From assembly GCF_003217095.1 (NCBI RefSeq), contig NZ_QJSR01000013.1, positions 1-39,811 on the forward strand: a DNA stretch of 39,811 nt, written 5' to 3'. Positions 11,202-39,811 of this stretch are shown here, in pieces. The notes under the pieces were generated by a model. It was not told the origin of the DNA, did not search any database, and saw only the letters and a list, made by a program, of their open reading frames with translations. The translations under genes were made by a program, and so were the position numbers. Positions within the stretch are counted from its first letter, which is position 1. Each line of letters starts with the position of its first letter. This DNA comes from Rhizobium sp. PP-CC-3A-592. GTDB lineage: Bacteria; Pseudomonadota; Alphaproteobacteria; Rhizobiales; Rhizobiaceae.

Positions 11202-12863
11202 TCAGGCCCCCAGGGAAGCCTTGTAGAGCGCGATCTGCTCTTCGCGTCCAAGTTGGTCTGTGATTTTGTCCCAGGCAGCAGCAATGGCATCTGCCCCAGC
11301 CTGTGCCGTCGCGTGCCCGGCAAAGACTTTCGCCAGCTCGTCTTCCGCCACGCTGTAATACTGGAAGATGCCGGGAATGCGCGGCTCGATCGCAGCATTC
11401 GGATGATTGTAGGAGTTGGACTGCGAGTTGAGATAGCTCGTGATGAACGCTTCGTCGTAACCGGCAGATACCCACTCCTTGATGTCGAACTGGCTCTTGC
11501 GATAGCACTGGAAGCCTGACGGGTAAGCTGCGGTCCAGAGCGCAAGATCCTTGCCGCCGAGATGGGCGGCCGCGCTCCACGCTGCCTTCTTTTTCTTCTC
11601 GTCACTATCGACGCGCGCCATGACGTAGACGCCCCAGCCGAGATAAGCCATGTTCGGGGCATGGTTCGGGCCACTCGCCAGCTTGTCCCACTGGCCGGTC
11701 TTCGAATTGTAGACGTCATCCGAGCCCGGGAGAATGTCGAAGCCGATCGTATCACCGACAACCGAACTGTCGCTCGTGCGTGCGCCAGCACCAACATCGC
11801 CCCACCAGGAGACCATCGAGCCGGTGCCCGCCAGGAACTGCTGGAAGGCCGTCGTGCCCGGATCGGCATTGAGCTGGTCGCCCGATTCCGACGGCAAGGC
11901 GTCGATAACGTCTTGGATCGCCCGGACCCAGGCCGGATTATTGATGCGCGGCTTCATGGTGTCGGTATCGAACAGCCATGCCTTGTCGTCGGGATGTTTT
12001 GCATACGCTGTGGCGCGGCTGCCGAGAAAATAGAACCCGAAACCGCCCCAGGCCTTTGGTGCATCGAGATAGCCGATTGCATCGATGCCACCGACGGTCT
12101 TGCCCTTGAGGAATTTAGTGACTTCCTGAACCTTTTGCCAGGTCTTCGGCACGCCCCACTCGCCCTCGTGGCCCTCGTCCTTCCAGGCCTTGGCAAGGTC
12201 GGCATCTGTGAAGTAGTCGGTGCGGTAGTTAAAGTTGTGGCAGTCGCCGTCGACCGAGATGCGGTAGGTCTTGCCGTCCCAGGTGCCGACCGGCGCCTTG
12301 AGGTAGTCGACATAGTCGTCCATGTCGATCTGCGCCCTGACCCAGTCCGGCATTTCCGACGCCAGCCCCTTGCCGCACACGTCGCCCTCGAACGGCGCGC
12401 CCATTTCGAGAAGATCGAAATCGACCGTTCCGGTTGCGATCGCCTGCTGCAAACGCGGATTGTAATCGGCCTGTGCTAGGTCGATCCAGGAGATCTTGGC
12501 GCCGGTATAATCCTCCCAGGGTTTCAGGAAGCCGCGGAATAGGACATTGTGGAGGTTCTGATTATTCAATCCCATGAACGAGAGTTCGACGCCGGCGAAT
12601 TCGCCCTGCGTAACGCTCTTCTTCGTGGCCTCCAGGCACATCTCGCCGACCTTCTGCCAGTCAGCGTCCGTTGGCGATCCTTTGCCGACACCGGGAACTT
12701 GCAGGATCTGACTGCGCAGCGATACATCCTGAGCGAAAGCTTCCCCGAACGACGCAAGAGCGCCGCTGGCCGCGGCGACGGCGCCAAGGCTTGCGCCGGT
12801 TTTCAGGACGGCGCGCCGGCTTAAGCCAATCGCCATCATTCTCTCGAAATCACTGACTTTCAT
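11202..12863 (-). CDS. CUT1 extracellular sugar-binding protein with Tat signal
   Basis: A 553-aa solute-binding protein of family 1. The N-terminus carries a twin-arginine motif, SRRAVLKTG, followed by a hydrophobic stretch ending near FGEAFA-QDV, so export is probably by the Tat pathway. It is longer than the usual 400-450 aa for sugar-binding proteins but matches a long subgroup found in rhizobia. Later landmarks are KPWEDYTGAKISWIDLAQAD, FDLLEMGAPFEGDVCGKG and AFQQFLAGTGSMVSWWGDVG. The ATG at 12863 has GGAGGAG six nt upstream. It is the second gene of the operon, 75 nt after the ATPase. The fucU-like gene next door makes a deoxy-sugar such as L-fucose possible, without direct proof. Confidence 0.93.
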   Translation of the reverse strand: MKVSDFERMMAIGLSRRAVLKTGASLGAVAAASGALASFGEAFAQDVSLRSQILQVPGVGKGSPTDADWQKVGEMCLEATKKSVTQGEFAGVELSFMGLNNQNLHNVLFRGFLKPWEDYTGAKISWIDLAQADYNPRLQQAIATGTVDFDLLEMGAPFEGDVCGKGLASEMPDWVRAQIDMDDYVDYLKAPVGTWDGKTYRISVDGDCHNFNYRTDYFTDADLAKAWKDEGHEGEWGVPKTWQKVQEVTKFLKGKTVGGIDAIGYLDAPKAWGGFGFYFLGSRATAYAKHPDDKAWLFDTDTMKPRINNPAWVRAIQDVIDALPSESGDQLNADPGTTAFQQFLAGTGSMVSWWGDVGAGARTSDSSVVGDTIGFDILPGSDDVYNSKTGQWDKLASGPNHAPNMAYLGWGVYVMARVDSDEKKKKAAWSAAAHLGGKDLALWTAAYPSGFQCYRKSQFDIKEWVSAGYDEAFITSYLNSQSNSYNHPNAAIEPRIPGIFQYYSVAEDELAKVFAGHATAQAGADAIAAAWDKITDQLGREEQIALYKASLGA

Positions 12864-12938
12864 GTTAGTCTCCTCCCGTTGATAAACTGCCACGGTGCGT
12901 GGCGGCCAGCGCTTCCTCCTTGAAGAGCCGGCTAGATC

Positions 12939-14000
12939 TCAGTCGATCCTCAACCCACTGTCACTGTCGAACAAATGGACCAGACTGGCATTTGGCGTCA
13001 TCGCGATCGTGTGGCTGGCTGGTTCCTCGACCCGGTCACGAAAAACGCCGATGATTTTCTGCTGTCCGAGCGTGGCAAAAACCTGCGTTTCCGACCCTGT
13101 CGATTCCACCACCGTCACATGGGCGCTGACGTCGCCGCCGAGCGTGAAATGCTCTGGCCGGATACCGTAATAGGACGGACGTCCGTCCGATCCGGCAGGC
13201 GTACGCTCAAGCGGTAGACGAATGCCGTCATCCGTTTCGAAGTACGGCGCCGGCGATGCGCGAATATGGCCCTTGATCAGATTCATCGACGGCGAGCCGA
13301 TAAACCCCGCGACGAAAGTGTTGGCGGGCCGGTCGTATAATGTCAGCGGCGACCCGATCTGCTCGACGCGCCCGTCGCGCAGGACGACGATCCGGTCGGC
13401 CATGGTCATGGCTTCCACCTGATCGTGTGTCACATAGATCATCGTCGTTGCCAGCCTGCGCTGCAGTTCCTTGATCTCAGCGCGCATCTGTACCCGTAGC
13501 TTTGCATCGAGATTGGACAGAGGTTCGTCGAACAGGAATACTTTGGGATCGCGGACGATTGCCCGACCCATGGCTACGCGCTGCCGCTGCCCGCCGGACA
13601 ACTGGCGGGGGTAACGCGCGAGGTACGGCACGAGATCCAAAATCTCGGCTGCCTTGCGCACGCGCGCCTCAATGTCGGCTTTCGTTTCGCCGCGCATTTT
13701 CAAGGCAAAGCCCATATTCTCCGCCACGGTCTTGTGGGGATAGAGCGCATAGCTCTGGAAGACCATAGCGATATCACGATCTTTTGGCGGCAGATCGTTG
13801 ACCACTTTTCCATCAATCCGGATGTCGCCGAACGTAATCGGCTCAAGGCCGGCGACCATGCGCAGCAGTGTCGATTTTCCACAGCCAGACGGTCCGACAA
13901 GGACAACGAATTCGCCGTCGGGGATTTCCACGGAAACGCCGTGGATCACCGTAAGGCCACCATAGGCTTTTCCGACATTGTCGATGTTCATCGATGCCAA
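12939..14000 (-). CDS. ugpC: CUT1 sugar ABC transporter ATP-binding protein (UgpC/MalK type)
   Basis: A 353-aa ATPase that energises the CUT1 importer. Walker A is GPSGCGKST, the Q-loop [12 protein letters not shown], the signature [16 protein letters not shown], Walker [13 protein letters not shown] and the H-loop [18 protein letters not shown]-terminal TOBE-type region (residues about 235-353) follows. The start is probably TTG at 14000 ([10 protein letters not shown]): a GGAGGAG site lies 8 nt upstream of it, but 17 nt from the ATG at 13991. The same leader string GGAGGAGACTAAC precedes the binding-protein gene. It is the first gene of the operon, behind a 5' leader that contains an 11-bp hairpin. 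Confidence 0.94.
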
Positions 14001-14060
14001 AAGTTAGTCTCCTCCAAACGGCGTCGCGCACTCCTCGCGACGGTCGTCCACCCCTGAAAG

Positions 14061-14100
14061 GCCGTGGCAGGCGGAGCCTCCCGGCGCGACCTGCCACGGC
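14061..14100 (-). promoter_or_regulatory. 11-bp leader hairpin upstream of the CUT1 operon
   Basis: A perfect inverted repeat, gccgtggcagg at 14061-14071 and cctgccacggc at 14090-14100, with an 18-nt GC-rich loop. It lies 61 nt upstream of the ATPase start, inside the probable 5' leader. It could be an attenuator, an mRNA-stabilising stem or a regulator site. No T-run follows toward the gene, so a simple terminator is unlikely. Confidence 0.5.
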
Positions 14101-14299
14101 TAGCTTGCCTTGGGAGGACACCATCCGTTCATTGAAACTTCACACATTTATATTTTGTTGTAAAGCGTTCCCTTGAGATTTAGTTTTGAATTTCATGTGA
14201 CCGCTCCTTACCATAAAATAGACGCGGAAACTTCAGCGACTTCATAGTGATTTTTCAAACCGCTGCCGGGGAAAACAGCATTTGGAACCCGAACAGAGA

Positions 14300-14326
14300 T
14301 TGTTGGCATTACAAATATGATATAAT
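14300..14326 (+). promoter_or_regulatory. Extended -10 promoter of the fucU-like gene
   Basis: The string tgatataat at 14318-14326 is an exact extended -10 element (TG-N-TATAAT). A -35-like ttgttg lies 15 nt upstream. The distance to the fucU-like ATG (14366) is about 40 nt, suitable for a short leader that includes the GGGAGG ribosome site. Confidence 0.55.
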
Positions 14327-14365
14327 TCGTAAAGAAAAGTATCGCGGCTAGAGGGAGGCAACGGA

Positions 14366-14806
14366 ATGCTTAAGGGGATCGATCCAATCTTGAACGCTGA
14401 CTTGGTGCATGCGTTGATGTTGATGGGACATGGCGACCAGCTGGTCGTGTGCGACGTGAACCACCCTGCGCAAACGATAGCCGAGCACACCACCTATGGA
14501 CGCCTCATCAATGTCTCCGGTTGCGGCCTCGAGCGTCTCGTGGAGGCTATCATGACGCTTTTTCCTCTGGATACCTTCGTTGATGCACCGGTTAAGCGCA
14601 TGCAGGTGGTCGGTGACGCGGATGCTCAGATGCCGATCTTCTCGGTAATCCAGAAAGCCATAGATCGGTCGCAAGAGAGACCGGTGGTGATGGAGGCATT
14701 GGAACGCTTTGCCTTCTATGAAGCCGCAAAAAGCTCGTTCGCAATCGTCAGAACCTCTGACCCGGGGCCTTATGGATGCTTCATTTTGAGCAAAGGCGTG
14801 ATTTGA
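14366..14806 (+). CDS. fucU: RbsD/FucU-family sugar mutarotase
   Basis: A 146-aa protein of the RbsD/FucU family, which interconverts anomers of imported monosaccharides (fucose or ribose). The start MLKGIDPILNADLVHALMLM is typical of FucU. The catalytic region GHGDQLVVCDVNHPAQ contains H22 and D24, and the C-terminal conserved block is FYEAAKSSFAIV, then GPYGCFILSKGVI. FucU rather than RbsD is suggested by the N-terminal sequence. A GGGAGG ribosome site precedes the ATG. It diverges from the CUT1 operon and is followed at once by remnants of other sugar genes, so it may be the survivor of a larger cluster. Confidence 0.9.
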   Translation: MLKGIDPILNADLVHALMLMGHGDQLVVCDVNHPAQTIAEHTTYGRLINVSGCGLERLVEAIMTLFPLDTFVDAPVKRMQVVGDADAQMPIFSVIQKAIDRSQERPVVMEALERFAFYEAAKSSFAIVRTSDPGPYGCFILSKGVI

Positions 14807-14890
14807 GGTCGCCCTCCAGAGTTACCTTATAAAATCTCTTGGCGTTTTCGCTCAGGACCGTCTTCTACGGATCGGTCCCAGCGAGCGAGT
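14781..14890 (-). pseudogene. C-terminal remnant resembling an amidohydrolase-type lactonase
   Basis: On the minus strand a short stretch reads SLAGTDP, a TAG stop, then KTVLSENAKRFYKVTLEGD and ends at a TGA at 14781. The pattern of a C-terminal KxxLxxNAxRxY resembles amidohydrolase-2 family enzymes, which include L-fuconolactonases. Upstream the frame is lost, although another frame (FVIEYLLDAVLRLEDLPVDA) stays open for about 45 codons. The end overlaps the 3' end of the fucU-like gene by 26 nt. The fragment is short, so the family call is tentative. Confidence 0.35.
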
Positions 14891-15646: not shown

Positions 15647-15696
15647 GGGTCACTTCTCGGTGGAAATGCCGGGTCAGCTCTCAGTGGAAATCAACA
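15647..15696 (+). repeat. IS21 right end with two terminal repeats
   Basis: Two imperfect direct repeats, gggtcacttctcggtggaaa at 15647 and gggtcagctctcagtggaaa at 15671, lie just after istB. IS21 elements carry multiple such repeats at each end as transposase sites. The element stops at about 15696, where IS3 orfB sequence begins. Positions 15668-15696 recur exactly, inverted, at 38992-39020. Confidence 0.75.
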
Positions 15697-15963
15697 GCCC
15701 TGCGTTTGCGGGTGGCCGGGAGCACCGTGGACCTGCTCGATCTTGTATTTGTCCAGCCATTCACCGAGATCGGAGGCGACGTAACACGGAACGTTCTCGG
15801 ACAGCAGGCGCGGCCGGTGTTGGACCTTGACCCTGTCGCAGCCTGAGGCGGCCAGCGCCAGATCGAGCGTGTCGGTGACGTCGTCTACTTTTATGCTGGT
15901 GCACAGCTTCCAGGCAGTGATGTACCGGGAATAATCGTCGAGGATGCTTGCGAGGAATGGCAC
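15697..15963 (-). pseudogene. IS3-family transposase OrfB, internal fragment
   Basis: About 89 codons of an integrase-core transposase: FLASILDDYSRYITAWKLCT, VQHRPRLLSENVPCYVASDL and EQVHGAPGHPQTQG. The frame is cut at its C-terminal side by the IS21 end, so the catalytic Glu region is missing, and the N-terminal third is absent too. The usual LSDN, with the second catalytic Asp, reads LSEN here. It is a dead fragment wedged between the IS21 remnant and dnaE2. Confidence 0.8.
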
Positions 15964-15978
15964 ACGTGATTGGTTCTG

Positions 15979-18900
15979 CTAGTGAAAGTTCCGCGCCTTC
16001 ACCTTCAGCGTATCGATATGCAGATCCCGCACGAAGATGTCCCTTGGCTGCGGCACTTTCTTCGGTCGATCACGCGCATCTCCTCCGCCTACCGAGCCAT
16101 GCGCGAATTCGTCGCCACGCCCTGACGTGACCTTGAATGCCGCATCCATGTCGGCCAGAGCGGAGAGATCGCCTGAGAGATCAAAGAGCTGCTGTGCCAC
16201 GAGGTGAACGACTTCGCCTTCCCGTTGGATGCGCCCGTTGATCGCCATCATCGAAGCCCCCAGCACCACGCGCCGGCGTTTCTCAAACAGGCTCGGCCAG
16301 ACCACGATGTTGGCCGCCCCCGTCTCGTCCTCGATCGTGATGAACATGACGCCCTTGGCTGATCCCGGCTTCTGGCGGACGAGCACGAGACCGGCGGTGT
16401 AAACCCAGCGTCCGTCCCTGCCCGTCATTGCCTCCTCGCAGGTCACCATGCTGCGCTTTGTGAGTTCTTTCCGCAGAAACGCGACCGGATGCTCCCGCAA
16501 TGTCAGGCCGACATGACCATAGTCCTGGACCACATTGTGCCCCTCCGTCATCTGGCGCAGCGCCACCTCCGGCTCCTGCTGTTCGGCAATCGCTCGCATC
16601 TCGCGCTCTGTCGCGGCAGCAAAAAGCGGGAGCGGCTCGTCGCGCAGCGCCTTGATTGCCCAGAGCGCGTCACGCCGCTCGAGCTCGAGACTGGGCAGAA
16701 AGCCATCTGCCTCCGCCAGCTCGACCAGCGAGGCCGCCGGCACACCGGATCGCCTCCACATGTCGTCGACGCTTTCGAAGGGATCGTCCATCCGGGCGGC
16801 GACGATCCTGGCGGCATCGGTGGCGGCCAGCCCCCGCACCATGCGCATGCCGAGACGCACAGCTCGCATCTTGGTGCCAGATATCTTTTCCAGCGTGCAG
16901 TCCCAGCGGGAGCGGTTGACGCAGACCGGGCGGATTTCGACCCCATGGGCACGCGCGTCCCCGACGATCTGCGCTGGCGCATAGAAGCCCATGGGCTGGG
17001 AGTTGAGGAGGGCTGCGCAGAAGGCATCGGGATGATGGCACTTCACGAAGTTGGAGGCGTAGGCAATGAGCGCGAAGGAGGCGGCATGGCTTTCCGGGAA
17101 GCCATAGGAGCCGAAGCCTTCGAGCTGGCTAAAGGTCTTTTCTGCAAACTCCGGCGAGTAGCCGTTCTTCACCATGCCCGAGACCAGCTTGTCCTTGAAG
17201 CGCGAGACACCGCCTGTGAACTTGAAGGTCGCCATGCTCTTTCGAAGCTGGTCCGCCTCGCCGCCAGTGAAGCCCGCGCAGACCATCGCCACCCGCATGG
17301 CCGATTCCTGGAAGAGCGGCACGCCGAGCGTCTTGCCGAGCACGGATTCGAGTTCAGGGGTCGGATATTCGACCTTCTCCTTGCCTTCCCGGCGACGGAG
17401 ATAGGGATGAACCATGTCGCCCTGAATGGGGCCGGGCCGCACGATCGCCACCTGCACCACGAGATCATAGAAGGTCCGGGGCTTGAGCCGCGGCAGCATG
17501 GCCATCTGCGCCCGGCTTTCGATCTGGAAGGTGCCGAGCGTGTCGGCCTTGCGGATCATCGCATAGGTGGCAGCCTCTTCCTGAGGGAGGCTGCCGAGGT
17601 CGAGATCTTCGTGCTTGTGCTCGCGGATGAGGTCGAAGGCCTTGGACATGCAGGTGAGCATGCCGAGCGCAAGCACGTCGACCTTCATCATCCGCAAAGC
17701 CTCGACATCGTCCTTGTCCCACTCGATGATCTGCCGGTCAGCCATGCTCGCTGGCTCGATTGGCACGAGATCATCCAGGCGATCGTGCGTCAGCACGAAG
17801 CCACCCGGATGCTGGCCGAGATGGCGCGGCGCGCCCATGAGCTGTTGGGCAAGCGACAGCGTGAGCACCAGCCGCCGATCGTCCGGGTTGAGGTTCAGCT
17901 CCTTGACGTTCCTCTCGCTGACCGCCTCCGACCACGACCACATGCCGGACGAAAGCGCCTTGATCAGATCCTCCGGAAGGCCCAGCGCCTTGCCGACATC
18001 GCGGATCGCGCCCTTGGCCCTATAGCGTGTGACGGTGGAACAGAGCGCTGCCTTCTGGTGCGTATAGGTCTTGTAGATCCACTGGATGACCTCTTCGCGC
18101 CGCTCATGTTCGAAGTCGACGTCGATATCCGGAGGCTCGTCCCGCTCCTGGCTGACGAAGCGCTCGAACAGCAGGTCATTGGTCTCGGGATCGATCGAAG
18201 TGATGCCGAGGATGTAGCAGACGGCGGAGTTTGCAGCCGATCCCCGCCCCTGGCAGAGGATGCCTTGCGACCGCGCAAAGCGCACGATCGAGAAGACGGT
18301 GAGGAAGTAGGGCGCATAGCGCATGGTGCGGATGAGATCGAGCTCATGGCGCACGGTCTTCAGGACACTCGGTGGCAGACCTTCGGGATAGCGATCGGGG
18401 ATGCACTCCCAGACATAGTGCTCGAGGGATGCCTGCGGTGTCTTGCCCGGAATGATCGCCTCTTCCGGATACTGGTAGGTTAGTTCCTCCAGACTAAAGG
18501 TGCAGCGGGACACGATCTCCATCGTTCGGGCGAGCGCCTCGCGGTGGCGCGGGAACAGACGCTCCATCTCCTCGGGCGGCTTGAGGTACCGGTCGGCATG
18601 GCGCTCGCGTTCGAAGCCGACCCCGTCGATGGTGGTGTTGTTGCGGATGCAGGTGACGATGTCCTGGAGCTGCCGACGGCCGGGCTCGTGGAACAGCACG
18701 TCATTGGTGACGACGGTGCGCACCCGGTAGCGGTGGGCAAGGATCCCAAGCTCATGCAGCCGCATCTGGTCGTTCGGCCGGCGGCGCAGCGACAGCGCGA
18801 GATAGGCGCGATCACCGAAGACCCCCGACAGCTTGCGGAGCTGCACCGCGCAGGTCTCGTCGGGCAGATCGGGCACGAGCACGGCAATGAGGCCCTCGGC

Positions 18901-19242
18901 GTAGAGCTCGAGATCCTCAAACGACAGGATGCAGTTGCCCTTGCCGCCACGGCCCTTGCCAAGCGTCAGAAGACGGGTAAGGCGGGAATAGGCGGCGCGG
19001 TCGGTCGGATAGACCAGCACTGACATGCCGTCGGCAAGATCGAGCCTGCAGCCGACCACCAGACGGATGCCGGTCGTGCGCGACGCCTCGAGCGCCCGCA
19101 CGATGCCCGCGAGCGAGTTGCGGTCGACAATGCCCAGCGCCTCGATGCCGAGCGCATGGGCGGTCGCAAACAGCTCTTCTGCGGAGGACGCGCCGCGCAG
19201 GAACGAGAAGTGGGTGGTGACCTGGAGCTCGACATATCTCAT
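15979..19242 (-). CDS. dnaE2: Error-prone DNA polymerase DnaE2 (ImuC)
   Basis: A 1087-aa C-family DNA polymerase used for damage-induced mutagenic translesion synthesis. It starts [20 protein letters not shown], the N-terminal PHP domain. The polymerase core has the catalytic aspartates in [19 protein letters not shown] and the family string [22 protein letters not shown]-terminal OB region follows ([20 protein letters not shown]), then the DnaE2-typical end ([21 protein letters not shown]). The ATG at 19242, 10 nt after the imuB stop and with a GAGGTGG ribosome site, is used; the longer open frame upstream is an out-of-frame shadow of imuB. It is last gene of the imuA-imuB-dnaE2 operon and probably LexA-controlled through the SOS box at 21505. 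Confidence 0.97.
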
Positions 19243-19252
19243 AGCGCCCACC

Positions 19253-20764
19253 TCATGCGAAGATCCCGTGCAGGAACCAGCGGTGCGAGCCGGTCGCCAA
19301 GTTCTCGCCGTCGCCGCTGCGGAACACCCAGAAGCGTTCGCCGGCCTCGTCCTCCAGCGTGAAGTAGTCGCGCACGGCTGCAATCTCGCTGTCGCGCTTC
19401 CACCATTCGCCAAAGACACGTTCCGGTCCATCCGCCCGCTTGACGCGTCGCCGCTTGCCCCGCCAGGTAAACGACACCGGCGGCTGGTCGGGCAGAAGCG
19501 CGATGACGTCGATCGGGTCGGGGTGGGACAGTAGACGCGTCGGGCGCGGCCAGTGCAGGGTCCAGGTCTCCAGCACATCGGCGGCAGTGGCCGCAATCCG
19601 GCGCACGCTGCGTTCCGGAACGTCGCTGGCAACGGCGGCATAGCGATAGACCCTGTGGCCGCGATTGCCGAAGATGTCGATCAACGGCGTGATGTCGCGA
19701 TCGGTGTCATCGACGAGCGTTGATACACTCTGCGTCTCCTCCAGCGGCTCTGCCATGACGGCGGCCAGCGACAGCTTCTCGATACCGAAGCCCGGCTCGA
19801 TCTTCTCGGTGCGGTCACGGAAGAGTTTTGTGAGCCAGGCGATGTCGCGGGCGGGCTTTGCCGTGCCGGCCCGGATCGCCTGACGCGTGCCATCGACCTT
19901 CTCGACAAGGAGATCGGCGCGCCGGATGCCGAGGCCCCTCTCCTGCAGCTTCTCCACGAGCGCCACCACCAGACGACCGACATACTTGTCGATGGTCTCG
20001 GCGGCTCCAATGGGTTCGGCAAAGGAGCGCGAGACGACGATGAAGTCGGGGTCACGGACCGGATCGATCGGTTCAGACACGCGGCCGTACATCTGATCGA
20101 GCCGGCGGCCGATCTCGGGGCCGAAGCGAAGCGCCAGCGGTGCACGCGGCGTGGCGGAGAGTTCGCCGATCGTGCGGAATCCGAGCGTACGCAGGTCGGA
20201 CACCGTCTTCTCGGGCAGACGCAGCCGCGCGATCAGCAGGCGTTCGACGGCCTTGACCGTCTGGCCCGTGGGCACGATCACGGTCTCGCGCGCGATGGTG
20301 CGGGCGCAGGCGTGCGCGGCCCCCCAGGTATCGGCGATGGCGACGCGTGCCGTGAGGCCCTTTGGGCGGAAGCGGTTGGCGATCCCGGAGATCATCATCG
20401 CCTCGCCGCCCTGGAGATGATCGGCGCCTTCCGTGTCGAGCACGATGCCGTCGGTGCCATCCACGGCAACGACGGGCGAGTAGATCTTCAACGCCCAGAG
20501 CGACAACCGCTCGAGCGCCCGTGCGTCGGCCGAGGGATCGGCATCCACCATCATCAGCCCGGAGAACAAAGCCTGCGCCTTGGCCGCCGCCATGCCGACC
20601 CGCACACCGGCGGCAACGGCTGCCGCATCCGCAGACGATACCCAGCGCTTGGCACCGCTTCGCGCGATCACCACCACCGGCTGCTCAGGCGGAATATCCG
20701 GATCGTCGCGACGGATGCGATCGGTCGGCAGCGTCGGCAGATAGATGGATACGACCCTGGGCAT
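19253..20764 (-). CDS. imuB: ImuB, Y-family polymerase-like mutasome subunit
   Basis: A 503-aa member of the Y-family polymerase group that lacks polymerase activity and acts as the hub linking DnaE2 to the beta clamp in the alphaproteobacterial mutasome. The start [20 protein letters not shown] is characteristic. Further stretches are [40 protein letters not shown] and [20 protein letters not shown]. The end [12 protein letters not shown] is also typical. The ATG at 20764 has GGAG 7 nt upstream and is preferred to a TTG at 20779. The gene overlaps the end of imuA by 80 nt, which suggests translational coupling. Confidence 0.95.
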
Positions 20765-21437
20765 CACAGGCTCCGACAATAAATTCCGCGCATTCTCCCG
20801 ATTTGACCCGCATCAGCTCTAGGAACCATTGCGGCCGGCCGACACCGGGAACCGGCAGCGCCACCGACGGCAGCACGCTGACCCGCCAGCGGGTGGTGGA
20901 TGCCGTCGGCTGGCCGAAGTCATTGGCCTCCGTCTGCCGTCGCCATCGGCGCACCACTAAGCCGAGCGTGCCGGACTTCTCGGCGGCAAGCTGGAGCCGA
21001 CGCGAGGCGGTCATTGGTAGGCGCACGAGTTCGCCGACCACGGCACCGAGACCGCCATGCGATAGGCCCTCTTCCATCGAAGCCAGCACGTCCTCCTCAC
21101 GATCAACTTCCACGAAGACCACACGGTTGGCATCAAGCCCGACCTGGGCAAGCGCGGGGAAAAACAGGTCCGGCCGCGTGAGGCACCAGACGACCTTGCC
21201 CTTGGTGCGCGCGGCAATCCCCGCAGCAAACAGGGCTGCTGCCGCACCATCGACCGTGCCCGATCCGCCGCCGGCGATCTCGTGCAGGGCACCACGGGCA
21301 AGACCGCCGCCCGGCAGAACGGCATCGATGGCGAGCACGCCGAACGACAGCCAGCCCGCTTGTCGCGGAACGCTGCGCTCCAGCGTCGCGATCCGGTCGC
21401 GAAGCTCGGTGAGAACCTGTGCGCGGGCAGCCGTCAT
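20685..21437 (-). CDS. imuA: ImuA, RecA-like mutasome accessory protein
   Basis: A 250-aa ImuA-type protein with a degenerate RecA-like fold, required with ImuB for DnaE2-dependent mutagenesis in the family. Visible features are the N-terminal AQVLTELRDRIATLERS helix, GVLAIDAVLPGGGLARGALHE and KGKVVWCLTRPDLFFPALAQ. Later parts are EEGLSHGGLGAVVGELVRLP and WFLELMRVKSGECAEFIVGA. The ATG at 21437 has a GAGAGGAG ribosome site. It is the first gene of the operon, 68 nt downstream of the SOS box. Confidence 0.94.
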   Translation of the reverse strand: MTAARAQVLTELRDRIATLERSVPRQAGWLSFGVLAIDAVLPGGGLARGALHEIAGGGSGTVDGAAAALFAAGIAARTKGKVVWCLTRPDLFFPALAQVGLDANRVVFVEVDREEDVLASMEEGLSHGGLGAVVGELVRLPMTASRRLQLAAEKSGTLGLVVRRWRRQTEANDFGQPTASTTRWRVSVLPSVALPVPGVGRPQWFLELMRVKSGECAEFIVGACDAQGRIHLSADAADRSHPSRRSGYSA

Positions 21438-21770
21438 CGATCACGCACTCCTCTCAAGGTTTTGCGGGTTACAAGCGCGGCATCATGCCGCTAACGAAGT
21501 TGATGTTCATGACTTGTTCTTTTCGCGATAGGAGTCAAGTCCGCCTTCAATAGGAAAATAGTCGGAAAAGTGCAGACGCTGGCGATTCCGCTTTTGATTC
21601 AGAATGGTAAGTCGCAGACCACCTTCCGGATCATCAACAGGAAATGTACCGGCCTGTGGCGCACGCGTCATCGCCCATTCCCCGAATGGTCGTTACTCGT
21701 AAAATCTCGTCCGCATGGTAGGATCGCCCGACCCTATCTCTCGATCAGCCATCCCATTGGGAAGCGACAG
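21438..21770. other. Divergent SOS control region between imuA and the SRAP gene
   Basis: A 333-nt gap. It contains the SOS box at 21505-21519. The plus-strand frame of the SRAP gene is open back to about 21570, but that stretch shows no domain and its use would bury the required N-terminal Cys. I see no other gene in this gap. Confidence 0.6.
21505..21519. promoter_or_regulatory. LexA/SOS box GTTC-N7-GTTC
   Basis: The sequence gttcatgacttgttc is an exact match to the direct-repeat LexA operator GTTC-N7-GTTC of alphaproteobacteria. It lies 68 nt upstream of the imuA start and 252 nt upstream of the SRAP start. It should repress imuA-imuB-dnaE2 until DNA damage. Whether it also controls the divergent SRAP gene is open. 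Confidence 0.85.
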
Positions 21771-22529
21771 ATGTGTAACCTCTACAACATCACAACGAAC
21801 CAGGAAGCGATCCGTGCCTTTGCCAATGCTGCCCGTGACATCATCGGCAACATGGAGCCGTCGCTCGATGTCTATCCCGACCGGATGGCGCCGATCGTGC
21901 GCAATGCACCCGATGGGGTACGCGAGCTTGCGTCTGTGCGATGGGGAATGCCGAGCTCTTCCCAGGCGCTTTATGAGGCCGCGACGAAGCGAGCGGACAA
22001 ACTGCGCGCCAAGGGGAAGGACGTGGACTTCGACACGCTCCTCAAACACGAGCCGGACGGTGGCACGACCAATGTGCGCAATACCGCAAGCCGCCACTGG
22101 ACGCGCTGGTTGGGGGTCGAGAACCGCTGCGTCGTGCCGCTGACCCGCTTTGCCGAGCCGAACCCTGCCGCCAAGGTCGAAGGCGGACGCACGCTGAATG
22201 CATGGTTTGCGGGCAACGCGAGTGAGCCGCTGATGTTCTTCGCTGGGATCTGGGTCAAGGACTGGACGAGTGTGCGCAAGGTCAAGGAAGGCCTGATCAC
22301 CGCGGACTACTATGCCTTCCTGACCTGCCCGCCCAACGCGGTCGTCGGGCCGATCCACCCGAAGGCAATGCCGGTGATCTTGACTACACACGACGAGGTC
22401 GAAGCGTGGCTGACGCTGCCTTGGCCAGAGGCGAAGGCGCTGCAGCGTCCGCTGCCGGAAGATCGGCTGGTTCTCCTCAATCCTCCTTCTGTTGACAGCG
22501 AACTTGGTTCCGCTGACGCGTTATCGTAA
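21771..22529 (+). CDS. SRAP-family abasic-site-protecting protein (YedK/HMCES type)
   Basis: A 252-aa SOS-response-associated peptidase family protein. Members crosslink to abasic sites in single-stranded DNA through Cys2, which must be N-terminal after Met removal. The ATG at 21771 gives MCNLYNITTNQEAI and so fixes the start; any longer start would destroy the active site. Other landmarks are the conserved Asn region TNVRNTASRHWTRW, CVVPLTRFAEPNP with the catalytic Glu, and AMPVILTTHDEVEAWL with the His. It diverges from the imu operon across the SOS box. Its location suggests damage-linked expression, which is inference. The last ~15 residues are nonconserved. Confidence 0.93.
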   Translation: MCNLYNITTNQEAIRAFANAARDIIGNMEPSLDVYPDRMAPIVRNAPDGVRELASVRWGMPSSSQALYEAATKRADKLRAKGKDVDFDTLLKHEPDGGTTNVRNTASRHWTRWLGVENRCVVPLTRFAEPNPAAKVEGGRTLNAWFAGNASEPLMFFAGIWVKDWTSVRKVKEGLITADYYAFLTCPPNAVVGPIHPKAMPVILTTHDEVEAWLTLPWPEAKALQRPLPEDRLVLLNPPSVDSELGSADALS

Positions 22530-22542
22530 AGATTGCGTCGGC

Positions 22543-22788
22543 TTATCGCCTTCGGCCCTTTGCAGTCGTGGCGACATGAACGAGAGCCGCCGTCGATAGC
22601 AGGATCGAAGAAACCAGCACCGCCACAGACAGCAGTCCGCGGTTCGTGATCTCGGCCGTCGCACGCAAGCCGCTGTTTTTCGTCACCATCAGTGATACCT
22701 CGGCCCGCTGAACATCCCGGCCGCCGAAAGTCGCGCTAAGATCATGGCTTTTGGTCTCACTCGGACCGCTCGAACGATCTTCGCTCAT
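22543..22788 (-). CDS. Small membrane protein, hypothetical
   Basis: An 81-aa protein beginning MSEDRSSGPSETKSHDLSA, with one membrane helix near residues 52-74 (LLSVAVLVSSILLSTAALVH) and a basic tail (TTAKGRRR). No family recognised. The ATG overlaps the stop of the upstream DUF3606 gene as ATGA (22785-22788), which supports it as a real, translationally coupled gene. It converges on the SRAP gene with 13 nt between stops. Confidence 0.65.
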   Translation of the reverse strand: MSEDRSSGPSETKSHDLSATFGGRDVQRAEVSLMVTKNSGLRATAEITNRGLLSVAVLVSSILLSTAALVHVATTAKGRRR

Positions 22789-22958
22789 TTCTCGAGCTTG
22801 TCCTCGACCCTGCTTCGGCTGTTGCCTACGGCTTTTACCGCATCTTCGACGTCGTCTCTCGAAACGCCCTCCTTTTTAGCCTCATAGGCGACTTCGTGAT
22901 CCTGCCCTGCTGCGACACGGGCCCGGTCTTGATTTCTTCCGCGAGTGGTCGTGGCCAT
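22785..22958 (-). CDS. DUF3606 domain protein
   Basis: A 57-aa protein: MATTTRGRNQDRARVAAGQ, then DHEVAYEAKKEGVSRDDVED, then AVKAVGNSRSRVEDKLEK. The DRARVA-x-GQxxEVxYxAKKxGVS pattern followed by a helix with VGNSR is the DUF3606 signature of small rhizobial proteins of unknown role. The start has an AGGAGAT ribosome site 5 nt upstream. It forms a two-gene unit with the small membrane protein and diverges from the ligase gene. Confidence 0.8.
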   Translation of the reverse strand: MATTTRGRNQDRARVAAGQDHEVAYEAKKEGVSRDDVEDAVKAVGNSRSRVEDKLEK

Positions 22959-23085
22959 CTCGTATCTCCTGATGTTGAATCACAGAGGTAACTTGCTACG
23001 ATTCCTGATGTTCCTTCATTCTCGCGATCATCAAGATCAGTATGGTGCCGGTCGATCTTTAACCTTTCAATGCTGTCATCGCCTA

Positions 23086-24141
23086 ATGGCGAGCAAACCC
23101 ATCAACCGTCCAAGACCAACGCACCTCAGGACCGAGGCTGAAGCACCGCTTCGCAGCCAACGGCGAAACCCTCGTGATCCCGCACAGCCCCAGTTGCCGC
23201 TCGACCCAATGCCAGAGCGGATCGAACCGTGCCTTGCCTTAATAACAGCAAAGCCGCCGGAAGGGCCGGACTGGTCCTACGAGGTGAAATGGGACGGCTA
23301 TCGCGTTCACGTCCACTGCGAGCTCGGCGGTAACATCCGCATACTGACCCGTGGTGGTCATGACTGGACACATCGGTTTCCCGCAATCGAGAAAGCCGCG
23401 CTAGAACTTGGTCCGGCGACCATGATCCTCGATGGGGAAGTCGTCGTCCTCGACGAGCAGGGTCGCAGCGACTTCAACGCTCTCGTCGCCTCGCTCGGCG
23501 GCCGTGGAGGCAAAAAGGTCGCAACGGACACGGTAATGTACGCGTTCGACCTGCTTTACCTCGACGGGTACGACCTATCCAAGCTCTCACTTGAGGAGCG
23601 CCGAATGCTTCTCGATCCGCTTCTCGAAAAGGCCGCCGGCGCTATCAGGCTTTCCGAGATGCTCGTCACCGATGGAGCGGCCCTGTTCGCGACGGCATGC
23701 GAACTGGGCCTCGAAGGCATCGTCGCAAAGCGCCTCGATGCCCCTTACAGCTCGGGACGTGGCGGCGATTGGCGAAAGATCAAGTGCGTCCAGTCGGACA
23801 CCTTCGTCGTGGTCGGCTATGAACCTTCGACCTCTTCTCCCGGCGCGATAGCCAGCCTCCTGCTCGGCGCCCGCAAGGGTGACAGGCTAGTCTATGTCGG
23901 CTCCGTCGGAACTGGTTTCAAGGACAGGGATGCACGCGATCTGATAGACAAACTGGATGCCATCCGGACGAAGCGGCCGGTCGTCGGCGTAGAGGGAAAG
24001 TCGCTGGTGTTCGTAGAGCCGATACTCACAGCCGAGATTGAGTACCGTGCCTGGACGGGTGACGGGAAACTTCGTCACGCGAGCTACAAGGGTTTGCGAG
24101 ATGTCGAGGATGCTGCCGACGTGTACATCATCGAAAGATGA
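23086..24141 (+). CDS. Stand-alone LigD-type ATP-dependent DNA ligase
   Basis: A 351-aa ATP-dependent DNA ligase similar to the ligase domain of the bacterial NHEJ protein LigD, without polymerase or nuclease domains. Nucleotidyltransferase motifs are present in order: motif I EVKWDGYRV with the adenylated K68, motif III LDGEVVVLDEQGRSDFNALV, motif IV EGIVAKRLDAPYSSGRGG and motif V WRKIKC. The C-terminal OB domain runs from about residue 240 (TFVVVGYEPST) and includes ARKGDRLVYVGSVGTGF and EIEYRAWTGDGKLRHASYKG. The ATG at 23086 (MASKPINRP) is preferred; an open frame extends further upstream but holds no conserved sequence. No ku gene is in the window, so its partner must lie elsewhere, or it acts in other repair. 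Confidence 0.92.
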   Translation: MASKPINRPRPTHLRTEAEAPLRSQRRNPRDPAQPQLPLDPMPERIEPCLALITAKPPEGPDWSYEVKWDGYRVHVHCELGGNIRILTRGGHDWTHRFPAIEKAALELGPATMILDGEVVVLDEQGRSDFNALVASLGGRGGKKVATDTVMYAFDLLYLDGYDLSKLSLEERRMLLDPLLEKAAGAIRLSEMLVTDGAALFATACELGLEGIVAKRLDAPYSSGRGGDWRKIKCVQSDTFVVVGYEPSTSSPGAIASLLLGARKGDRLVYVGSVGTGFKDRDARDLIDKLDAIRTKRPVVGVEGKSLVFVEPILTAEIEYRAWTGDGKLRHASYKGLRDVEDAADVYIIER

Positions 24142-24257
24142 CGTATCGGCATCATCGGATTGGCGCTTTCCATCCGTTGGACGGAAATTCCAGTTAGACC
24201 AGATCGGCAGGCGCGGTTTTGTAGCATCTATGGACAGGACACGAAGAGCTAGGCGCG

Positions 24258-24640: not shown

Positions 24641-24976
24641 ATTACAAGACGGAACGCGTCCGTGCAGGCCAGAGAAGAGGCTTCCGCCTTGCGCCGACAG
24701 CAGGCATCGCGAAGAAAAGGTGGTAACTTTTTGCTTCGCCTTCCCGCCTTTCTGCTTTGATGTAGGCGGCGCGAGCTTGATCAGGATGACGTAGCCGCCA
24801 ATTCTGTGTTCGACCAACTTCTTCGATCATCGCGGCCCCGAAAAGGTCAGTGGGCTTGGCTTGCGAACGCTGTAGGATTGCAGCTGCTCTCGTTTGTTCT
24901 TCCGAGCATCTTGTGGAAAACCCCTTGGGAGACACAGAGAGTGGCAACTTTCGGTGAGTGTTCGCATTACTTCGCC

Positions 24977-25411
24977 ATGAACAGTACCAACGACGACCGC
25001 CGACCTTTCGCCCTCGTCGTTGACGACGATCCCCTGCTCCTCATGGATGCGGCTGATATCCTTGATGACGCAGGCTTCCGCCCGCTGGAAGCGGGCAATG
25101 TAGACGAGGCCGAACGGCTGCTTGTGGAATACGACGGTGAATTCACCCTGCTGTTTACCGACGTCCAGATGCCGGGTGGCCGGGACGGGTTTGACCTCGC
25201 CCGCCTGACCGCCGAACGCTGGCCTGATATCGGGATACTGGTCGCGTCCGGGCTGGCCAATCCTGAGCCGGGCCTGATGCCTGAAGACGCTATGTTCCTA
25301 CGCAAGCCTATCTCTGCCGACCTTATCTATGATCGTCTGCAGGTGCTGCTGCCGGACGGACGAAAGCCCGAACCGCTGAAGCAAAAGACCCGCGCCCACC
25401 AATCTTCTTGA
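24977..25411 (+). CDS. Single-domain response regulator
   Basis: A 144-aa receiver-only protein. The acidic pocket is VVDDDP (D16-D18), the phospho-acceptor D62 in LLFTDVQMPGG, and the conserved K110 in FLRKPIS. There is no output domain. Start ATG 24977 (MNSTNDDRRPFALVV), the one nearest the fold; no clear ribosome site is seen. It lies 186 nt upstream of the LOV histidine kinase on the same strand, so it is the best candidate to receive phosphate from that kinase. That partnership is inference. Confidence 0.9.
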   Translation: MNSTNDDRRPFALVVDDDPLLLMDAADILDDAGFRPLEAGNVDEAERLLVEYDGEFTLLFTDVQMPGGRDGFDLARLTAERWPDIGILVASGLANPEPGLMPEDAMFLRKPISADLIYDRLQVLLPDGRKPEPLKQKTRAHQSS

Positions 25412-25597: not shown

Positions 25598-27052
25598 ATG
25601 CAAGACCCCTCCGAAGAACAGCGCATCGACCGCGAGATCCACAGCACCCAGTCTGGAGCCGACCCGTTCGCCGCAGCCATGCGCGCCACGCGCATGCCGA
25701 TGGTCATCACCGATCCACGACTTCCCGACAATCCCATTGTCTTTGTCAACGACGCGTTCGCACGTATGACCGGCTACAGCCGCGAAGAGACACTGGGCCA
25801 TAACTGCCGGTTCCTGCAGGGGCCGGGCACTAACCTTGACGATGTGGAGAAGGTGCGTCAGGCGATCAGAAACCGTGTGCCGATCGAGATCGACCTGCTC
25901 AACTATCGCAAAGACGGCAGCCTCTTTTGGAACCGCCTGCTGGTGTCGCCGGTCTTCGACGGCGGCGAACTGACCTACTATTTTGCCTCTCAGCTCGATG
26001 TCACGCGGGAGAGAACCGCAGGTTATCCTGCAGACCGCGACGTCCTTGAACAAGGCATGCAGCAACGCATTGCTGACCTGACCGCGAGCGAGCAGCGGCT
26101 ACATTTTACCCTCAAAGCCGGTGGCCTCGGCACCTGGACCTTCGATGTGCCGAACCAGAGGCTAGTGTCATCAGCACTGTGCAAGGCCAACTTCGGACGA
26201 GGCGCAGCGGAAACGCTGACTTTCACCGAGTTGCAGGAGATCGTTTATCCCGAAGATTTTCAAAGATGGAAGGACACGCTCAACGCGGCGCTGGCAACCG
26301 ATGGCAACTTCCATATCGAGTACCGGGTGTTTTGGCCGGACGGTTCTCTGCACTGGGTCGAGATCCGTGCCGAAACGCGGTTCGATGACGACGGTGCGCC
26401 GCTGCTGATGAGCGGCATCTCGATCGATATCACCGCGCGACGCGAGGACGAGGCTTACCGTGACCTGATGAACCGCGAGATGGGACATCGCATCAAGAAT
26501 ATTCTCGCCACCGTTGGATCGATCGTTAGCCAGTCGCTCCGCACGGAGGCTCCCGCGTCCAACATGCGCGATACTGTTGCCGAGCGCATCCGCGCGCTCA
26601 GCGCGGCCCATGACATCTTGACCGGCAAGGAATGGGACGTTGCGGGTTTGCGACAGGTCGTCACGCAGGCGGTGCAGCCATTCAACGCCGAAGGCAGGAT
26701 CCGGATCACAGGAGCGGACTTAGACATATCGCGTCGCGCCAGCAGTGCCCTGACGCTTGCCCTGCACGAGCTTTCCACCAACGCTGTCAAGTACGGGTCA
26801 CTGTCCGCCGACAGCGGCTCCGTCAGTGTTGTCTGGTCGGTCTCTGGAGAAACCTTCGAGCTGACCTGGCAGGAAACCGGCGGTCCACCGGTTCGAGTTC
26901 CCGCTCTCTCGGGGTTTGGATCACGCATGATCGAGAAAGCGCTGACCTCCTCGGTCAGTGGCGAAGCCAGAATTCACTACCATCCGGAAGGTGTCATGTT
27001 CCGTCTGATGACGACAACTGCTGAGATGCGAACCTCTGGTCGGGAAAACTGA
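25598..27052 (+). CDS. Blue-light LOV/PAS HWE histidine kinase
   Basis: A 484-aa soluble sensor kinase. Residues about 25-135 are a LOV domain with the photoactive Cys70 in GHNCRFLQGP, which forms a flavin adduct in blue light. Residues about 165-285 are a second PAS/PAC domain (RVFWPDGSLHWVEIRAETRF). The kinase core is of the HWE type: H297 in REMGHRIKNILATVGSIVSQ, the N-box HELSTNAVKYGSLS and the W-x-E of FELTWQETGG. The architecture matches rhizobial and Brucella LOV-HK proteins with an added PAS. There is no membrane segment. The start ATG 25598 has a GAAGAG ribosome site. It probably signals through the receiver protein just upstream. Confidence 0.93.
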   Translation: MQDPSEEQRIDREIHSTQSGADPFAAAMRATRMPMVITDPRLPDNPIVFVNDAFARMTGYSREETLGHNCRFLQGPGTNLDDVEKVRQAIRNRVPIEIDLLNYRKDGSLFWNRLLVSPVFDGGELTYYFASQLDVTRERTAGYPADRDVLEQGMQQRIADLTASEQRLHFTLKAGGLGTWTFDVPNQRLVSSALCKANFGRGAAETLTFTELQEIVYPEDFQRWKDTLNAALATDGNFHIEYRVFWPDGSLHWVEIRAETRFDDDGAPLLMSGISIDITARREDEAYRDLMNREMGHRIKNILATVGSIVSQSLRTEAPASNMRDTVAERIRALSAAHDILTGKEWDVAGLRQVVTQAVQPFNAEGRIRITGADLDISRRASSALTLALHELSTNAVKYGSLSADSGSVSVVWSVSGETFELTWQETGGPPVRVPALSGFGSRMIEKALTSSVSGEARIHYHPEGVMFRLMTTTAEMRTSGREN

Positions 27053-38815: not shown

Positions 38816-38991
38816 TGGAAATACGAGCGTTGCCTTTGGCCTGACCCCAAGGACGAATACGGTCAGCACTTCCTGCTGACCAAGAAGGCGCGCAACGTCG
38901 ATCCCGAGGCCGTCTGGGGACTGAGCGAGGCGGAGGCCTACGGCCTGTTCTGCGGTTTCCGCTGGTCGGCCAACGGCGGCGAGCCGTTCTG
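38816..38991 (+). pseudogene. IS1595-type transposase, N-terminal fragment
   Basis: The frame reads YERCLWPDPKDEYGQHFLLT, then KKARNVDPEAVWGLSEAEAY and GLFCGFRWSANGGEPFC, where it runs into an IS21 end. FRW-x-x-x-x-GEPxC just before a zinc ribbon is the N-terminal pattern of IS1595-family transposases. The zinc ribbon's later cysteines and the whole catalytic domain are cut off. The family call rests on about 55 residues. Confidence 0.6.
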
Positions 38992-39020
38992 TGTTGATTT
39001 CCACTGAGAGCTGACCCGGC
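38992..39020. repeat. IS21 end, inverted copy of 15668-15696
   Basis: A 29-nt sequence beginning tgttgatttccactgagagc and ending ctgacccggc is the exact reverse complement of the IS21 end at 15668-15696. It interrupts the IS1595 fragment and is itself followed within a few nt by the start of an IS3-type element. Only the tip of this second IS21 copy survives. Confidence 0.8.
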
Positions 39021-39063
39021 GGGGGTGCGGACGAAAACTTGGACCACCAGCAGGAGGTAGTTC

Positions 39064-39811
39064 ATGTATTCCTACGCAGACAGACTTCGAGCCGTTGAGC
39101 TCTACATCCGGCTTGGCAAGCGGCTCAAGGCAACCATTCGGCAGTTGGGTTATCCCACAAAGAATGCCCTGAGGGGTTGGTACCGCGAGTACATCGAGAA
39201 TCGCGACTTGCGTGTTCAGGCGGTAGCTCGAGCACCAAAATTTCCCGAGGCCCAAAAGCAGGCTGCCCTTGAGCATTACCGCACTCACGATCGTTGCATC
39301 TCTTCGACGATGAGGGCGCTTGGCTACCCTGGTCGCGGAACTCTAACCGGATGGGTCCGGGAGGCCTTTCCGGAGGCGCGCTCATCCGTGGTTGGCCGAT
39401 CTTGGCGCCGTGGCTATTCCGATGAGATCCGGCAAGCAGGGGTCATAGGTCTCTGTGGTGGGGATGAAAGTGCTCAACAGGTGGCTGACCGGCTGGGCGT
39501 CTCAAGGCCGACATTGTATAGCTGGAAAGACCAGCTTCTCGGTCATGAGGCTTCTTCATCCATGAAACGCCGCAAAACCAACGCTAAAGCGCCAGAACGT
39601 GAAGAACTCGAGCGACAGCTTGAAGCCCTCCAGCGTGATGTCCGCCAGTTGCAACTCGAGCATGATCTCCTAAAGAAGGCCAATGAACTGCTAAAAAAAG
39701 GCCTGGGCGTCGATCTGCAGATCCTGAGTAATCGGGAGAAGACACAGCTGGTTGACGCCCTTAGGAATATCTATCGAGTGCCGGAACTGCTTGCCCAATT
39801 GGGCTTGGCGC
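39064..39811 (+). CDS. IS3-family transposase, partial (C-terminus off the window)
   Basis: A plus-strand frame of about 249 codons, open to the window edge, starting MYSYADRLRAVELYIRLGKR after an AGGAGGT ribosome site. It has two helix-turn-helix units (TIRQLGYPTKNALRGWYREY and AQQVADRLGVSRPTLYSWKD), then a leucine-zipper-like coiled coil (EELERQLEALQRDVRQLQLE). A run of seven A (39692-39698 region) lies where IS3 elements often frameshift, but the frame stays open past it (KKGLGVDLQILSNREKTQLV), so orfA and orfB may be fused. The catalytic domain lies outside. The element's left end is probably near 39025. Confidence 0.85.
   Translation, partial: MYSYADRLRAVELYIRLGKRLKATIRQLGYPTKNALRGWYREYIENRDLRVQAVARAPKFPEAQKQAALEHYRTHDRCISSTMRALGYPGRGTLTGWVREAFPEARSSVVGRSWRRGYSDEIRQAGVIGLCGGDESAQQVADRLGVSRPTLYSWKDQLLGHEASSSMKRRKTNAKAPEREELERQLEALQRDVRQLQLEHDLLKKANELLKKGLGVDLQILSNREKTQLVDALRNIYRVPELLAQLGLA

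Follow-up and report, generated by a model that had tools for sequence, protein, structure and literature searches.

The region at 15979–24141 of the window (the whole 39,811-nt stretch of Rhizobium sp. PP-CC-3A-592 DNA that was analyzed) was found to contain dnaE2-imuB-imuA, an exact SOS box, a SRAP gene, a membrane-protein/DUF3606 gene pair and a stand-alone NHEJ-type ligase gene. Judged from its sequence, this island is probably composite, with an SOS mutasome-SRAP unit adjoining a general-stress end-joining unit. Gene finding and family matches confirmed the gene set named in the initial annotation, including the exact SOS box. Its proposal of one damage-tolerance module held for the grouping, which was shown to be recurrent, but not for the exact gene order, and a single SOS regulon was not shown.

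The imu operon, its SOS box and the SRAP gene

The imu genes are located on the minus strand. The dnaE2 gene (15979–19242), predicted to encode an error-prone C-family polymerase, starts with ATG at 19242, has an intact frame and scored 1373.6 bits against NF004225 (cut-off 939), thus providing the DnaE2-type polymerase of an ImuA-ImuB-DnaE2 mutasome. The product of imuB (19253–20779; start codon uncertain) matched PF00817 and PF11799 above cut-off and is a predicted Y-family polymerase-like mutasome subunit of the accessory clade. The imuA gene (20685–21437) was assigned from its position in the operon and a match to NF033429 (E 3e-17) that, at 63 bits, is below the cut-off of 150.

The LexA box expected upstream of imuA in such a mutasome was also found: the exact SOS box GTTCATGACTTGTTC is located at 21505–21519 (plus strand), 67 nt from imuA and 251 nt from SRAP. 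The window contains two exact SOS boxes compared to 1.45 expected by chance, and the string was therefore rejected as proof by itself. It is the position that makes the box meaningful: imuA was matched in 38 accessory imu loci, the window being one of them, and 37 of these showed an exact box directly upstream of imuA. Just past the box, a TTGAC at 21534–21538 (minus strand) is a candidate −35 element of imuA; counted by eye, 35 of 37 accessory loci have the corresponding GTCAA no more than 40 nt past the box. A scan of 21300–23200 for the sigma-70 consensus gave zero sites. By its placement, the box belongs to imuA and overlaps the likely imuA promoter.

The SRAP gene (21771–22529, plus strand) has a Met-Cys start, and its product showed a SRAP (YedK/HMCES) domain above the curated cut-off (PF02586, 66.9 bits compared to 27.1) and a match to PDB 2aeg (E 8e-81) that places it in a plasmid-type subfamily. 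In an alignment, Cys2 and the active-site residues Glu129 and His196 corresponded to the same residues of the chromosomal SRAP. N101 is common to the plasmid SRAPs and 2aeg, in a column different from that of the Asn of chromosomal SRAP, which is presumably also an active-site residue. A longer SRAP ORF starting at 21570 was rejected because of a 1-nt gap in the leader of two related loci (L003 and L005).

The DUF3606 unit and the stand-alone ligase

Between SRAP and the ligase, a gene for a protein of 81 aa that is predicted to have a single membrane segment (22543–22788, minus strand; best 19-residue hydropathy 2.4) and the DUF3606 gene (22785–22958, minus strand; PF12244, 61.4 bits compared to a cut-off of 24.3) form a two-gene unit on the strand opposite to SRAP and the ligase, a detail absent from the initial annotation. 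Profile searches assigned the membrane protein to no family, and relatives were found only in L003, from Rhizobium sp. Leaf371, among the loci searched. For DUF3606, the best match in a PDB profile search reached only E 0.039.

An EcfG-type promoter motif, GGAAC-N16-AGTT (22990–23014, minus strand), begins 56 nt ahead of the DUF3606 start and is present in L003 too. EcfG-type motifs were detected at 30 of 56 DUF3606 genes compared to 1.1 expected, and 26 of these motifs lie between −53 and −85 relative to the DUF3606 match. The strict form GGAAC-N16-17-CGTT, from which the motif of the window deviates by its AGTT end, was found at 13 of the 56.

A ligase, Ku, Xth or SRAP was present within 3 kb of 17 of 46 DUF3606 sites, compared to 1 of 120 control windows; the other 29 sites had no such neighbor within that distance. 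The controls were 6-kb windows from core imu regions, partly of other genomes, with three windows taken per region, two of them overlapping. The ligases that DUF3606 adjoins fall at three distinct positions in the ligase tree, and DUF3606 was also found next to Ku or Xth. Both small proteins had been proposed as new members of a repair grouping, should that grouping be conserved: linkage of DUF3606 to repair genes extends well beyond this strain, but among the loci searched the membrane protein was seen in none besides the window and L003. Most likely, DUF3606 serves as a small accessory protein in end joining or in base-excision repair when cells are stressed. More tentatively, it may be an unrecognised protein that, in Hyphomicrobiales, assists end joining and excision repair under general stress, expressed from EcfG promoters and often back-to-back with a lone ligase, and plasmids may have fused this unit with the SOS mutasome-SRAP unit into an island answering two alarms. 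No prior description of DUF3606 as a companion of SRAP-imu, plasmid imuABC or EcfG-driven ku-ligD was found in the literature searched, where matches to DUF3606 were unrelated, judged by title and abstract.

The ligase gene (23086–24141, plus strand) starts 556 nt after SRAP. Its 351-aa product was shown to contain an NHEJ-type ATP-dependent DNA ligase domain (TIGR02779, 316.3 bits compared to a curated cut-off of 227.75), as in LigD (PDB 1vs0), with a KxDG motif (K68-WDG). Unlike LigD, it showed ligase domains only, and no polymerase or phosphoesterase domain was found in a Pfam scan; a three-domain LigD was rejected (TIGR02776, 276.9 bits, below 373.2). In a tree of 41 rows, built from 67 ligase matches after removal of short, duplicate and listed loci, the ligases of the window and of plasmids fell into one clade of 17 rows. 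All ten other divergent DUF3606/ligase pairs examined (six genomes) also carried GGAAC-N17-19-TT directed toward the ligase, compared to a rate of 0.026 per 140 nt, by a spacing rule that was fixed after the sequences had been inspected; a further pair, in which the ligase frame is in pieces (L269), is outside the ten. The ligase-directed motif was found in neither the window nor L003 (0/2).

Recurrence, plasmid location and alternative explanations

SRAP, ligase or Xth genes were present in 11 of 39 accessory imu regions compared to 2 of 40 core imu regions, and counting DinB as well raised this to 19 of 39 compared to 2 of 40. In two of the 11 regions the ligase match was a full-length LigD, together with SRAP in L136 and with nothing else in L157. 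The accessory set comprised all 39 places of at least 359 bits (38 and the window) in a sample of 121 genomes, and for the core set 40 of the remaining 92 were selected by their long contigs; G086:C84, a partial match of 50% that contains two stops, scored below 359 bits and belongs to neither. On a SRAP tree of 58 rows out of 117 matches, after exclusion of sequences without a Met-Cys-Asn start, short ones, duplicates and L057–L082, the SRAP-imu linkage requires at least two changes; the imu-linked SRAPs of L129 and L151 are outside this tree. Besides, at least 80% of an imuB-imuA/ligase-SRAP query was covered in 139 plasmid records, and five annotated plasmid examples were found. Thus imu, SRAP and lone LigD-type ligase genes are recurrent neighbors, and the SRAP-imu link has more than one origin. 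The exact order imu-SRAP-membrane protein-DUF3606-ligase was found in two genomes only, that of the window and that of Leaf371 (one of 80 SRAP-centred loci, L003), and was rejected as a conserved seven-gene unit.

The location on mobile DNA suggested by the initial annotation is indirectly supported by the plasmid homologues and by L003, in which the 8.2-kb block shares both its edges with the window and has different flanks that begin right at these edges. Against it, repC was found on contigs C6 and C7, not on C13.

All seven genes might answer LexA through a single box, SRAP divergently and DUF3606 and the ligase along with it, as the initial annotation had it. An exact conserved box does lie between imuA and SRAP; in seven loci with the imuA/ligase-SRAP order, the common intergenic stretch contains a single exact box and no other; and among 73 SRAP loci that lack imuA, five show an exact box in the 400 nt upstream, and four of these five have a box at −73 to −92. 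Such SOS-only control is nevertheless doubted and appears rather improbable, because the box is close to imuA and distant from SRAP, no exact box is present between DUF3606 and the ligase, where the EcfG-type motif is found instead, and the DUF3606 and membrane-protein genes are oriented against read-through from SRAP.

Repair genes might also accumulate as loose cargo on large rhizobial replicons, with no joint function. The rarity of the exact order, the flanks that switch at the block edges, the frequent presence of ligases of this type on plasmids (matches in 1494 records) and the SRAP relatives, 72 of 80 of which had no imu gene in the examined locus, are consistent with this, but the contrast between accessory and core imu regions, the repeated SRAP-imu linkage and the varied end-joining and excision-repair neighbors of DUF3606 make it unlikely. 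A role in plasmid establishment, in which the island would aid survival of incoming or plasmid DNA by lesion bypass, abasic-site shielding and end sealing and would raise the mutation rate after transfer, agrees with the plasmid homologues (477 of 875 matching plasmid records are predicted conjugative) and with the transient hypermutability that, according to the available text, a plasmid imuABC cassette conferred after transfer from Cupriavidus to Ralstonia (PMC4151985). It seems quite doubtful, as no transfer or replication gene was detected among 20 Pfam-scanned window proteins and repC lies on other contigs.

Relation to known systems and a possible mechanism

The SRAP-imu link, plasmid imuABC and EcfG-driven ku-ligD are already known. 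The available text of Aravind et al. (2013; PMC3765255) describes SRAP beside imu genes and an SOS context, as in the island, and also SRAP with Ku and ATP-dependent ligase, but places the ligase in neighborhoods of DinB, LexA and Ku, names no EcfG-driven half and does not contain DUF3606. Accessory imuABC cassettes are over-represented in plasmid-bearing rhizobia according to PMC4151985, of which the available main text lacks the word ligase and mentions no SRAP or DUF3606 partner. In Sphingopyxis granuli, ku-ligD belongs to the EcfG regulon with GGAAC-N16-CGTT promoters (PMC7083833), a parallel to the proposed general-stress unit, but that system is ku-ligD rather than a lone ligase, and DUF3606 is absent from the available text.

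In the composite island favored here, LexA would occupy the box that overlaps the imuA promoter and be removed after damage, upon which ImuA-ImuB-DnaE2 would copy past lesions, while the neighboring SRAP is expected to use Cys2 for binding to abasic sites of single-stranded DNA. Under general stress, an EcfG-type sigma factor would transcribe the DUF3606 and membrane-protein genes, and the divergent lone ligase would seal breaks, probably together with a Ku protein whose gene lies at another place in the genome. No Ku gene was found inside the island; a search of the source genome showed that it encodes LexA, NepR, Ku and a LigD. Besides the lack of Ku in the island, this reading is weakened by the AGTT end of the DUF3606 motif in the window, by the missing ligase-directed motif in the window and L003, by the 29 DUF3606 sites that lack a repair neighbor, by the 72 SRAP relatives with no imu gene and by the two accessory regions in which the ligase match is a full-length LigD.

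These results address the question why rhizobial plasmids bear additional polymerases of the error-prone type and additional ligases for end joining. If LexA and EcfG both feed the island, DNA damage as well as starvation or drying would govern damage tolerance, mutation and end joining. Starvation and drying are conditions that soil bacteria face between hosts. With such control, the DUF3606 family would also gain its first testable role.

Gene content and recurrence of the grouping

Within 15979-24141, dnaE2-imuB-imuA were located on the minus strand and a SRAP gene on the plus strand, with an exact SOS box (GTTC-N7-GTTC) between imuA and SRAP. A membrane-protein/DUF3606 pair overlapping by 4 nt (minus strand) and a stand-alone ligase (plus strand) complete the seven genes. 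The ligase passed the curated cut-off of TIGR02779 (NHEJ ligase domain) but fell below that of the full LigD model TIGR02776.

The genes had been proposed as one damage-tolerance module carried on mobile DNA. The exact seven-gene order is rare, since DUF3606 and the membrane protein were found in 1/80 SRAP-centred loci (the best 80 of 180 confirmed relatives), namely L003 from Rhizobium sp. Leaf371, and a ligase copy (92%) in only one of seven Rhizobium-genus genomes searched, again Leaf371 (G122). Among the same 80 loci, several of which end early at contig ends, imuA, imuB and dnaE2 were each present in seven, and 72 had no imu gene.

What does recur is imu together with SRAP, ligase or Xth. 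An imuB search of 121 genomes gave 39 accessory places (the window and 38 fetched, all of at least 359 bits) and 92 others, 40 of which served as the core type. SRAP, ligase or Xth were present in 11/39 accessory vs. 2/40 core imu regions (Fisher P 0.006, kinship ignored), and with DinB included in 19/39 vs. 2/40 (P 8e-6, kinship ignored); the regions were 3.5 to 20 kb long and part of the DinB matches were short fragments. In two accessory regions (L136 and L157) the ligase match was a full-length LigD. Among plasmids, 139 of 875 matching records, many perhaps near-copies, covered at least 80% of a query joining imuB-imuA and ligase-SRAP, a cover reachable without the whole SRAP. Annotated examples were Rhizobium WSM4643 and SRDI969, Agrobacterium salinitolerans (with dinB in addition), and A. 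fabrum Kin001 and Ensifer adhaerens M8 (both with xth and DUF3606 in addition). Three accessory loci (L130, L131, and L136) had dinB and a SRAP match downstream, plus Xth or full-length LigD, and are a further kind of repair neighbourhood.

The SOS box between imuA and SRAP

Two exact SOS boxes were observed in the window against 1.45 expected, and the significance of the box derives from its position. An exact box was found immediately upstream of imuA in 37 of the 38 accessory loci with an imuA match, window counted, and within the 1 kb searched upstream in 39/40 core loci. GTCAA (TTGAC on the imuA strand) followed within 40 nt of the box in 35/37 accessory loci, as counted by eye, so that the box overlaps the probable imuA promoter.

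The initial annotation had centred the repair island on this box; its distance to the SRAP start is 251 nt. The imuA-SRAP intergenic stretch was kept throughout five close copies (window and L003-L006; mean column identity 92%), and one operator common to imuA and SRAP is thus possible. In 10 of the 80 SRAP loci, vs. 2.4 expected, an exact box lay no more than 400 nt upstream; imuA was also present upstream in five of these 10, and 5/73 SRAP loci without imuA had such a box.

Origins and flanks of the block

The window SRAP grouped with 2aeg in the PDB, a protein from an Agrobacterium pAT plasmid. Its identity was approximately 50% with the SRAP proteins encoded in two plasmid imu-ligase blocks, against 27% with the chromosomal SRAP of the same genome. 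In the SRAP tree (58 rows), the 14 imu-linked rows required two changes, both forced by well-supported branches. The plasmid blocks together with L052 and L055 made up one of the two imu-linked sets; the second, consisting of the window and L003-L006, was nested among SRAPs without imu. Judged from this tree, the SRAP-imu linkage arose more than once. The ligase tree had 41 rows; in it, the window and Leaf371 ligases formed a separate branch within a clade of 17 rows, which includes the seven-row plasmid imu-linked branch as well. Other DUF3606-paired ligases (kin of Mesorhizobium rows, and rows of family f35) were placed elsewhere in this tree.

The region 15976-24144 showed 91.6% identity to L003 with no alignment beyond the block, and 15975-22481 was common to the window and L004-L006, the left edge likewise lying 3 nt past the dnaE2 stop. 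Homology to L003-L006 starts at one same base (15975-15976), and the sequence directly to the left of it in those loci shows no alignment to the window. Window 12517-14855 was also present in L004, so the two are partly in the same place; L004-L006 share about 5 kb right of SRAP that is absent from the window. The left flank of the window resembled Rhizobium leguminosarum plasmid DNA (83%). Within the host genome (5.12 Mb in 27 contigs), repC was located on C6 and C7 and not on C13, the contig of the window. A mobile history of the block, as first suggested, is likely.

A transposase (rve) fragment (15691-15963) abuts the dnaE2 end, and the right end of the window (38985-39811) matched plasmid DNA, at best at 96.5%; some of the matching records carry an IS3-family transposase annotation there. 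Two long ORFs left of the L003 block resembled recombinases by eye, with no Pfam match. ABC-3C systems adjoin the repair islands of both L003 (12535-15558; PF20291, PF20285) and the locus L089 (12571-18831), and ABC-3C is annotated in E. adhaerens M8 pC; these neighbours suggest a defence-island setting.

DUF3606 and its predicted control

Earlier papers describe SRAP with imu genes, and also with DinB, Ku, and ATP-dependent ligase (PMC3765255), UmuC-like polymerases linked with SRAP-like proteins (PMC12926913), imuBC enriched on plasmids in rhizobia (PMC4151985), NHEJ genes on Rhizobiales plasmids (PMC7719229), ku-ligD in the EcfG regulon (PMC7083833) and heat-induced ku and ligD in Mesorhizobium loti (PMC3989490). 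In the papers searched, which covered few subscription journals, none was found joining imuB, dnaE2, ligD, and Rhizobium, and in a set of 10 papers none combined SRAP, LigD, and ImuA; the two papers matching DUF3606 were unrelated judging from title and abstract, and PF12244 gave no match.

DUF3606 is the novel component of the grouping. The count drew on 46 of the 57 DUF3606 places listed beyond the window; a repair gene lay within 3 kb of DUF3606 at 17 of the 46 vs. 1 of 120 control windows (partly overlapping, in core-imu regions). The neighbours were ligase (12), SRAP (7), Ku (3), Xth (2), and DinB (1), with ligase, Ku, Xth or SRAP at every one of the 17 sites. In this search the other 29 had no repair gene within 3 kb; two of them (L234 and L288) contained Xth fragments. 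On named plasmids, neighbours included a Ku pair, xth, and ligase; Agrobacterium vitis CG957 had no repair gene beside DUF3606, and Rhizobium TAL182 had no annotated repair genes near it, only xth, ligase, and dnaE2 fragments. DUF3606 and the membrane protein had been put forward as new members, should the grouping prove conserved; DUF3606 neighbours repair genes far beyond this strain, and the membrane protein was seen only in L003 among the SRAP-centred loci.

Upstream of DUF3606, GGAAC-N16-17-NGTT was found in 30/56 cases (the 46 counted sites and 10 named, window included) vs. 1.1 in random stretches, at -53 to -85 in 26 of the 30, and the strict CGTT form in 13/56 vs. 0.46. The window has GGAAC-N16-AGTT. 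A GGAAC-N17-19-TT motif (spacing rule chosen post hoc) also faced the ligase in 10/10 other divergent DUF3606/ligase pairs tested, from six genomes, and was absent in the window and L003.

Downstream of the ligase, a receiver-domain protein (24806-25411) and an HWE histidine kinase (25598-27052) are encoded, the latter with a PAS domain that looks LOV-like by eye; the general stress response is often fed by HWE kinases. At the family level, the chemistry of SRAP and the action of the mutasome are established, and the role of DUF3606 is inferred from its neighbour genes. The host genome encodes LexA, two NepR, and Ku, as well as a LigD whose frame on contig C2 spans 910 aa, and it therefore has both alarms and a Ku to serve as partner. 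From the motifs, imu is predicted to be under LexA and DUF3606 under EcfG-type control.
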